Source: an uncultured Aureispira sp. | GTDB lineage: Bacteria > Bacteroidota > Bacteroidia > Chitinophagales > Saprospiraceae | Reading direction: 5' to 3' | Assembly: GCA_905480075.1 (NCBI GenBank) | Contig: CAJQOX010000074.1 | Coordinates: forward strand, 1 to 64,000 | DNA: 64,000 nucleotides | Shown: positions 14,684 to 20,002 of the stretch, one piece after another | Numbering within the stretch: position 1 is the first letter of the stretch | How the letters are laid out: each line of letters begins with the position of its first letter | Notes under the pieces: generated by a model | Database searches by the model: none | What the model saw: only the letters and a program-made list of their open reading frames with translations | Told to the model about the DNA's origin: nothing | Translations under genes and position numbers: made by a program

Positions 14684-14939
14684 AAGTGTAACCTTTTGTT
14701 GATTGCCTCGTATTATCTAAATAAAAAAATATACCAGTAAAAAAAATAACTCTGAACATTCTCTACATTCTGAATTTGTCAAAAAAATAAAGATAATTTA
14801 TTTTGGCGCAATTTAGCTAATTTTATTATTCAAAGTATTCTTTGTCTGAATTTTCTATATTATACTGAGGATATTTTCCCTTTATTAAATACACTTAAAT
14901 AAAAACCTTATTGCCTGCACCTCTACTCCACTGAATTTT

Positions 14940-14954
14940 GTAAGTAAGTAAATA
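14940..14954 (+). repeat. GTAAGTAAGTA motif, copy 1
   Basis: GTAAGTAAGTAAATA, 25 bases before the ATG of the truncated sigma factor. Copy 3 sits 24 bases before the full-length paralogue, so motif and gene appear to have duplicated together. Confidence 0.7.
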
Positions 14955-14964
14955 ATAAATATTT

Positions 14965-15237
14965 ATGTTGAGTAGTAAGCCATGTAGTGATAAAGACCTT
15001 GTGTGCAGATACATCAAGGGAGATGACAGAGCATTCGAAATTTTGTTTAACAGACATAAAGGGAAAGTTTATACTTGTGTCTATTGTTACCTGAAAGACG
15101 AAAATCTCGCGGATGATGTTTTTCAGCAAACATTTATGAAGGTGATCGATGTATTGCGTTCAGGTACCTATGATGTTGATACAAAGTTTCTTCAATTCGT
15201 TTTGAGGACCGCTTATGAGATAGTCAGCTTAAAATAA
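14965..15237 (+). CDS. ECF sigma factor-like protein containing region 2 only
   Basis: A 90-residue protein that aligns from its first residue with the N-terminal half of the ECF sigma factor encoded 285 bases downstream. Shared blocks include DKDL-C-YI, RAFE-L-NRHK, the helix LADDVFQQTFMKVID and RSG-Y. Region 2 binds the -10 element and core RNA polymerase; region 4, which reads the -35, is wholly missing because the frame ends after YEIVSLK. It could be a decaying duplicate, but the frame is intact with a clean start and no frameshift, so a functional competitor or regulator cannot be excluded. I see no convincing remnant of region 4 in the following 280 bases. Confidence 0.7.
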   Translation: MLSSKPCSDKDLVCRYIKGDDRAFEILFNRHKGKVYTCVYCYLKDENLADDVFQQTFMKVIDVLRSGTYDVDTKFLQFVLRTAYEIVSLK

Positions 15238-15384
15238 AAATAAGGCCCTAAAAGATTCTTTGCAGTCGAATTTTTGATTTAAATGTTAAAAACGAAAAAA
15301 AATACAATAAAGATAAGGAGTTTCGACTCAATTTAATTAACTTTATTTGCTCAAAGCAATATTTCCCAAAATTAACTTCGCATG

Positions 15385-15394
15385 GTAAGTAAGT
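15385..15394 (+). repeat. GTAAGTAAGT motif, copy 2
   Basis: Located between the two sigma genes, about 150 bases after the stop of the truncated copy and not next to a start codon. Confidence 0.6.
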
Positions 15395-15497
15395 GAAAGG
15401 TTGATTTTGTTTATTGTTCCCAAGTTTAAAAAAAAGTAAATTTCTAAAAAAAAAAACAGTACCTATTGTAAAAAAAATTACACCCTAGCATTTTTTT

Positions 15498-15510
15498 GTA
15501 AGTAAGTAAA
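15498..15510 (+). repeat. GTAAGTAAGTA motif, copy 3
   Basis: GTAAGTAAGTAAA directly upstream of the full-length sigma gene (ATG at 15522), same spacing as copy 1 relative to its gene. It follows a T-run. Confidence 0.7.
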
Positions 15511-15521
15511 TCAAATTAATT

Positions 15522-16109
15522 ATGCAAAGTTGTAAGTCTTGCACAGACAAAGACCTCATATGTATGTATATACATGGAGGCAAGGAAAGAGCGTTCGAAA
15601 CGCTGCTCAACAGACACAAGTCCAAAATCTACACGTCTATTTACATGTTTGTAAAAGACAGAGATTTGGCCAATGACATCTTCCAGGAAACTTTTATTAA
15701 AGTTATTGATACTTTCAGATCAGGAAAGTACAATGAAGAAGGTAAATTTATTCAATGGGCACTTCGGATTTCTTATAATTTATGTGTTGACTTTTTTCGT
15801 AAAAATAAACGAAGAAAGACAATTACGCCTTCCGAAGACTTTGATATCTTCAATTTAATTGCCGCAAAAGATGATAATCAGGAAACGGTTATCATGAAAG
15901 AACAAACCTATTCCAAAGTCCGGAAATTGGTAGATTCTTTACCTCAGGAACAAAAAGAGGTTGTCTTGTTGAGGAATTATGCAGATTTAAGTTTTAAGGA
16001 AATTGCAGAGCTGACAAATGTCAGTATCAATACCGCACTGGGTAGAATGCGTTATGCACTTATTAATATTCGTAAAACAATAAGTGAACACCACATTAGC
16101 CTGCAGTGA
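15522..16109 (+). CDS. ECF (extracytoplasmic function) RNA polymerase sigma factor
   Basis: A 195-residue sigma-70 family protein of normal ECF size. Region 2 covers about residues 20-90, with the core-binding helix DLANDIFQETFIKVID and the -10 recognition segment continuing to SYNLCVDFFRKNKRR. Region 4 covers about 130-185, with LPQEQKEVVLLRNYADL and the helix-turn-helix FKEIAELTNVSINTALGRMR. No anti-sigma (FecR-like or ZAS) gene follows, and a terminator comes about 80 bases after the stop. It is preceded by a shortened paralogue and flanked by GTAAGTAAGT motifs that may be its own target. The regulon is unknown. Confidence 0.93.
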   Translation: MQSCKSCTDKDLICMYIHGGKERAFETLLNRHKSKIYTSIYMFVKDRDLANDIFQETFIKVIDTFRSGKYNEEGKFIQWALRISYNLCVDFFRKNKRRKTITPSEDFDIFNLIAAKDDNQETVIMKEQTYSKVRKLVDSLPQEQKEVVLLRNYADLSFKEIAELTNVSINTALGRMRYALINIRKTISEHHISLQ

Positions 16110-16117
16110 TTTTTAAA

Positions 16118-16128
16118 GTAAGTAAGTA
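16118..16128 (+). repeat. GTAAGTAAGTA motif, copy 4
   Basis: Located 9 bases after the stop codon of the full-length sigma gene and about 60 bases before its terminator hairpin. Confidence 0.65.
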
Positions 16129-19474: not shown

Positions 19475-20002
19475 TTACTTCTTTGAATTGTAATACATTT
19501 CTTTTGCCTTTTCAAAGTCTTCCCTCCCTGGTGCAGAGGCTGACATTTCATATTCTTTTGTCCCGCATGGATTCTCTATCGCCTCCGATGTCCAGCTGAG
19601 AATGTTTTCTGTGCCCCTATCCTCTGTCCAGTCGTAATGTGGGTATTCAGAATCAAGGGGGCTTTTTCCTTTTTTGTCCGTCATTCCGGCTTTGTCTGGA
19701 ATCTGATGGATAAATAGACCATAAACAGGCTTTTTTTGTAAAACAGCCTCCCTTATCTCATATTCAATGAAATATCGCCCATAGGATTCTGAACCAATTA
19801 ACACTATAACTGCATCGGCCTGAGAAATTTCTTCCTCTATCCATTGGTGGATTGAAGGAAGTCCTATTTCCATCATTTCTGCTATTTGTTCAGCGCTGAT
19901 AAAGGGCGTCATACTACAGCCTGGCAGGCTGTTCCAAATTGCTGTCAATGTTTTGATACGGTCATAGTCATAACTGTAGTGAAAGCTAAAAAAAACATGC
20001 AT
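19475..20002 (-). CDS. TIR-like protein of the DUF1863/ThsB type
   Basis: A 175-residue protein with the features of MTH538-type TIR-like domains (PF08937), the family of Thoeris ThsB: N-terminal strand HVFFSFHY, ADAVIVLIGSESYGRYFIEY, EIREAVLQKKPVYGLFIHQI, and the C-terminal block YPHYDWTEDRGTENILSW. Glu82 in YEI (or Glu80) is the probable catalytic glutamate if the protein cleaves NAD, as ThsB does to make a cyclic ADP-ribose-type signal. No ThsA effector (SIR2/SLOG) is in the window. The gene starts 9 bases after the stop of a glycosyltransferase-like gene, so the two are probably one transcript. A short tail follows the fold (about residues 150-175). Confidence 0.8.
   Translation of the reverse strand: MHVFFSFHYSYDYDRIKTLTAIWNSLPGCSMTPFISAEQIAEMMEIGLPSIHQWIEEEISQADAVIVLIGSESYGRYFIEYEIREAVLQKKPVYGLFIHQIPDKAGMTDKKGKSPLDSEYPHYDWTEDRGTENILSWTSEAIENPCGTKEYEMSASAPGREDFEKAKEMYYNSKK

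Follow-up and report, generated by a model that had tools for sequence, protein, structure and literature searches.

A partial tandem duplication of an ECF sigma factor gene in Aureispira and its product as a candidate sigma-region-2 mimic

Two ECF sigma paralogs stand in tandem in a 64,000-nt stretch of DNA from an uncultured Aureispira sp. (the window, meaning the whole of the stretch that was analysed), and the first of them is reduced to 90 residues that match only the beginning of the second. The locus thus raises the question of whether the short gene is a duplicate in decay or encodes a functional protein, and, if the latter, what a sigma-like protein devoid of region 4 might do. Comparison of the sequences indicates that the short gene is not a decaying duplicate and that its frame is under purifying selection. 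We see roughly an even chance that its product is a functional, fast-evolving paralog, namely a sigma-2 mimic that would tune its full-length neighbor via a partner.

The tandem genes and their leaders

The tandem arrangement claimed in the preliminary description is present, with both frames starting with ATG on the same strand and 284 bp between them (Table 1). Residues 1-87 of the short protein align with the long one at 55% identity and 76% positives (BLASTP, E 2e-36), and Pfam detects Sigma70_r2 alone in the former (profile positions 1-57 of 71, E 1e-5) and both r2 and r4 in the latter. The sigma homology of the short protein stops at about codon 87, inside helix 4 (region 2.4), the frame ends at residue 90, and a search for a region-4 match in it returned none; it is hence a 90-aa single domain, with neither a receiver domain nor a full ECF-like domain. 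The earlier view of a cleanly ending region-2 protein therefore stands as far as the alignment goes, with the correction that region 2 is not whole, its end lying within helix 4. A clean stop of this kind is what a tandem duplication with its right end inside the gene leaves in the upstream copy. The homolog in a sister species (96 aa) has no Pfam match, but it does have NCBIfam sigma matches down to 2e-11, and the occurrence of the same architecture in that separate assembly (L016/L087) shows that the short frame is no assembly artefact.

Throughout the nine Aureispira genomes, and in several further genera, the long gene lies beside uvrA in divergent orientation. Among the matches listed for 298 Saprospiraceae genomes, nearly every genome has a full-length protein as its best match to the long gene. 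The encoded sigma factor has close relatives across Bacteroidota, which display a nearly invariant EEGKFIQW motif. NCBIfam offers no name for it, the best model, PRK12513, scoring below the cut-off; it may be the sigma factor linked to PorXY, SigP, which in P. gingivalis has 193 aa (PMC4800418). Elsewhere in the window, a minus-strand gene (19475-20002) that adjoins a dihydroorotate dehydrogenase-like gene codes for a TIR-like protein of 175 aa, of the ThsB type found in Thoeris systems (Pfam ThsB_TIR, E 2e-14; PADLOC ThsB, E 4e-28).

Table 1. Features of the sigma paralog locus (positions in the window)
Feature	Position	Strand	Evidence or remark
Promoter-side repeat, upstream copy (74% identity with 15301-15347)	14781..14827	+	Repeat D2
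Duplicated cis element GTAAGTAAGTAAAT, 25 nt before the short ATG	14940..14953	+	Eroded in the sister genome
Short paralog, 90 aa, confined to sigma region 2 (helices 1-3 plus half of helix 4)	14965..15237	+	Pfam, BLASTP, AlphaFold, Foldseek; intact homolog at L016:963-1253
Duplication junction zone: end of sigma homology at codon ~87, then intergenic DNA	15226..15300	+	BLASTP and repeat comparison
Promoter-side repeat, downstream copy, with TTAACTTTATTTG inside it	15301..15347	+	TTAACTTTATTTG at the same place in the other species
Block ATTACACCCTAGCATTTTT (consensus in the genus, TTTACTCCCTAGCATTTTT), conserved ahead of the long gene	15477..15495	+	Genus comparison
GTAAGTAAGTAAAT element, 24 nt before the long ATG	15498..15511	+	Conserved in 9/9 Aureispira genomes
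Long paralog, a full-length ECF sigma factor of 195 aa with regions 2 and 4, from which the short one derives	15522..16109	+	Homologs adjoin uvrA in Aureispira and other genera of the family

The proposal that start context and motif were duplicated together with the short gene is borne out by the GTAAGTAAGTAAAT elements before both ATGs and by the promoter-side repeat, which demonstrates duplication of the upstream DNA as well; the duplicated unit measured about 520-560 bp and spanned the promoter side, the leader, and the first ~87 codons. Since GTAAGTAAGTAAAT precedes the long ATG in every one of the nine Aureispira genomes, it belongs to the parent gene as a conserved cis element and did not arise through the duplication. 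The motif GTAAGTAAGT occurs four times in the window (0.12 expected), all within 14940-16127, and the copies at 14940 and 15498 occupy equivalent positions ahead of the two start codons, at -25 and -24. The extra copies are located between the frames (15385-15397) and just past the long frame (16118-16127), and neither has a counterpart at the equivalent position in the sister; longer GTAA runs, seemingly simple repeats, are found elsewhere in the present genome, at G000:C11:3432-3451 and G000:C88:102264-102295. Upstream of the long sigma gene in Aureispira, the TTTACTCCCTAGCATTTTT block is followed at a variable distance by GTAAGTAAGTAAAT (15477-15511 in the window), forming a gene-specific leader element. 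When up to two mismatches are allowed, each genome has essentially a single copy of the block, the one ahead of the long gene; considered as an autoregulatory promoter, it therefore yields no regulon. In this genome the short leader resembles those of the long genes, with a score reached by 0 or 1 of 500 shuffles, whereas in the sister it is mostly eroded (shuffle fractions 0.01 to 0.96). Co-regulation of the two genes is accordingly plausible here and doubtful in the sister.

Origin of the duplication and selection on the short frame

The short copy is found in two of the nine Aureispira genomes, both incomplete assemblies: the present one and the sister (G007), where it likewise occupies the interval that separates uvrA from the long gene. 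The conserved synteny of short and long copies, for which the preliminary description proposed a search, is thus seen in these two genomes. The uvrA-sigma intergenic DNA of the other seven contains no recognizable remnant of the short copy; that of one of them (G001) includes a run of N and shows no recognizable homology to it. The two short sequences are monophyletic (bootstrap 99-100 in codon trees, 95 in the protein tree) and are placed, weakly, beside the long genes of the carriers (47-54 in codon and protein trees). In a nucleotide tree under a plain HKY model they again form a pair (68), but at another place among the long genes, with a support of 18. Five derived residues are common to both and occur in none of the 35 long proteins. 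The single clade and the shared derived residues together point to a single duplication and disfavor independent events in the two carriers. Of the states specific to the carriers' long proteins, V61 is seen in both short proteins and C14 in that of this genome, while C4, H18, S34, R47, and a one-residue insertion near residue 19 are missing from them. As some but not all of these states are shared, the duplication most likely took place part-way along the stem of the two carriers, and we regard it as most likely one old event in the common ancestor of two Aureispira species.

Absence of the short copy from close relatives had been put forward as support for a decaying duplicate. The copy is indeed absent from seven of nine genomes, but this absence is better read as ancestral than as decay, because those genomes hold no remnants and the tree puts the duplication on the carriers' stem. 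Neither carrier has any other region-2-only frame, all other Sigma70_r2 frames being at least 164 aa long. Among the matches listed for the 298 genomes, which extend to about E 4e-25 such that weaker copies like that of the sister may lie below, second region-2 matches in 23 genomes of the family all fall in frames of at least 181 aa.

The long proteins of the carriers are 90% identical and the short ones 48-49%. Neutral sites are saturated between the two species, with fourfold sites differing at 67% in uvrA and at 70% in the acyl-CoA dehydrogenase gene. In the short genes, differences at codon positions 1, 2, and 3 number 28, 24, and 57 (33%, 28%, and 66%), and the first two positions together (30% different) lie below both the third (Fisher p 6e-8) and the 66.5% neutral rate (p 3e-22). 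A codon model with a separate omega for the short genes rejects neutrality (2dlnL 68.5), as do single-tip tests for this genome (p 1e-6) and the sister (p 0.02). The dN/dS comparison suggested earlier was therefore informative in that omega is below 1; its values were discarded and are not given, because synonymous sites are saturated, and branch lengths stood at their bound. When neutral drift was simulated to the divergence seen, 0 to 2 of 2000 trials (at most 0.1%) ended with both frames still open. The frame is thus not evolving neutrally, as that of a pseudogene would, and the earlier remark that an intact frame is not what an old pseudogene looks like gains support from the rejection of neutrality and from the probability of about 0.001 or less that both frames were retained by chance.

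Predicted fold and residue changes

AlphaFold models of the two short proteins, built from alignments that include the long proteins and are helped by them, comprise four helices with mean pLDDT of 92.9 and 85.7, and the model for this genome finds its best fold match in region 2 of E. coli sigma-E (5or5, 2map, 4lup; Foldseek). Both are accordingly predicted to fold as sigma region 2. Among positions at least 90% conserved in the 35 long proteins, those up to residue 65 (helices 1-3) are kept at 17/20 and 15/20 in the two short proteins, and those beyond it at 6/11 and 2/11 (Fisher p 0.09 and 0.007). The divergence between the short proteins is nonetheless not concentrated in the DNA-contact part: they are 45% identical in the last third as against 50% in the remainder, suggesting that this part was remodeled and kept rather than abandoned.

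Three residues, W81, I85, and N88, form the -10 pocket in the open complex of sigma-H, and their replacement by alanine is detrimental to transcription (PMC6411747). Aligned with them in the long protein are W79, I83, and N86, all of which are replaced in both short proteins (this genome/sister: F/L, T/T, and E/T). In addition, both lack the specificity-loop residues E73 and G74 as well as the remainder of helix 4. Hence, the binding of -10 DNA that had been envisaged for the short protein is unlikely and, given the residue loss, we reject it. What the protein retains of a functional ECF sigma factor is the region 2 fold; with neither a -10 pocket nor region 4, it would not itself start transcription. 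At D52, Q55, and E56 in region 2.2, which we take to be homologous to the beta-prime contacts D403, Q406, and E407 of sigma-70, the short protein of this genome has D/Q/Q and that of the sister I/E/E. Binding of the short protein to core RNA polymerase, the other activity envisaged, therefore has partial support: D52 and Q55 are retained here and E56 is replaced by glutamine, and in the sister D52I, Q55E, and K60E would weaken it.

Candidate roles and known sigma-like proteins

These features show that a tandem duplication of ~550 bp copied the promoter and leader of a conserved ECF sigma gene together with its first ~87 codons, and we propose that the product of the copy, presumably expressed, would be a compact mimic of sigma region 2 that neither reads the -10 element nor possesses region 4. 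Such a mimic would most likely act via protein contacts on the better-kept face of regions 2.1/2.2, the regions that bind the beta-prime clamp helices and class I anti-sigma factors (PMC7406223). By occupying a partner of the full-length sigma factor it could tune the latter in either direction: were the partner an inhibitor (an anti-sigma factor or adaptor), the sigma factor would be freed and the mimic would activate, and were it the beta-prime clamp helices of the core polymerase, the sigma factor would be damped and the mimic would repress. The fast evolution and the altered region 2.2 of the sister lean, we infer, towards a regulator as the partner. Against the mimic as a whole speak the altered charged residues of region 2.2, which differ more in the sister, the erosion of the promoter-side elements before the sister's short gene, the even spread of divergence between the short proteins, and the fact that no anti-sigma gene is evident beside the gene pair. 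Of the competitor or modulator role suggested previously, a modulator remains plausible for a paralog without region 4 and with a selected frame, while binding of -10 DNA does not. Somewhat more tentatively, with odds that we would place a little short of even, a single partial tandem duplication may have turned part of the parental sigma factor into its own trans-acting regulator, a promoter-blind sigma-2 mimic competing for a partner.

Several other explanations have to be set against the mimic. One of these, a truncated by-product of tandem duplication that is still open by chance, would account for the presence of the short gene in only 2/9 genomes, for the 48% identity of its copies as against 90% in the long ones, and for the eroded leader elements of one carrier; we nevertheless hold it to be improbable, as codon positions 1 and 2 differ at 30% versus ~67% at neutral sites, neither lineage has acquired stops or frameshifts (neutral probability ~0.001 or less), and the conserved positions of helices 1-3 are mostly kept in a confidently predicted fold. 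That fold and the constraint at the amino-acid level also speak against a translated upstream frame or leader that controls the long gene in cis, its peptide being unimportant. Its related leader and its position, 284 bp before the long gene and on that gene's strand, would suit such a role, but the long gene's own conserved leader elements lie between the two frames, and it is the explanation to which we give least credence.

Two further alternatives grant the short protein a function in transcription. It could, as the preliminary description proposed, be purely a competitor for core RNA polymerase, i.e., a dominant-negative sigma-2 and thus a narrower, core-only form of the mimic, in keeping with the role of region 2 as the main core anchor (PMC6411747, PMC7406223) and with the D52 and Q55 kept in this genome. 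This is a doubtful option in view of D52I, Q55E, and K60E in the sister, and because a lone ECF sigma-2 without region 4 and the linker should bind the core weakly. Alternatively, the short protein could supply region 2, and another protein region 4, in a split two-subunit sigma factor such as RsoA/SigO, RsoA being likewise a separate sigma-2 domain protein (PMC8103513). This we consider highly improbable, and less likely than a mimic competing for a partner: the -10 recognition residues are lost in both short proteins, the neighboring sigma factor already has its own region 2, and neither carrier (G000 and G007, both incomplete assemblies) has an evident stand-alone region-4 protein that scores above the Pfam cut-off.

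Sigma mimics (PhyR) and split sigma factors (RsoA-SigO) are known as finished systems, whose birth is hard to see. Here, one genus holds the parent, the duplicated segment with its leader, two diverged and constrained descendants, and several unduplicated relatives that serve as controls. If the function of the mimic is confirmed, it would exemplify a one-step route from a sigma factor to a sigma regulator, and provide a small protein of natural origin that inhibits or derepresses an ECF sigma factor conserved widely in Bacteroidota. That sigma factor, possibly SigP-like, is the direct parent of the short protein (55% identity in region 2) and, unlike it, is full-length. The phage T4 protein gp55 is also a region-2-type sigma-like protein without region 4, and it reads promoters with phage partners; the short protein, by contrast, is chromosomal and no longer has the -10 residues. 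In the SigO-RsoA pair of Bacillus subtilis, RsoA (YvrHa) resembles the short protein in being a small protein with the sigma-2 domain alone. However, RsoA starts transcription together with a region-4 protein, whereas the short protein adjoins a full-length sigma factor, has lost the -10 residues, and has a visible origin in the partial duplication of its neighbor. The sigma-like domain of alphaproteobacterial PhyR, which activates by titrating NepR (PMC8103513), shares with the short protein an ECF-derived fold in which promoter-binding and, in part, core-binding residues have degenerated, and the short protein indeed combines degenerate DNA-binding residues with a retained ECF fold, as expected of a PhyR-type mimic. 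PhyR is a response regulator that deploys its ECF-like domain in this way, while the short protein is a lone sigma-2 without a receiver domain; a PhyR-like action on its part would consist in titrating the partner of a true ECF sigma factor.
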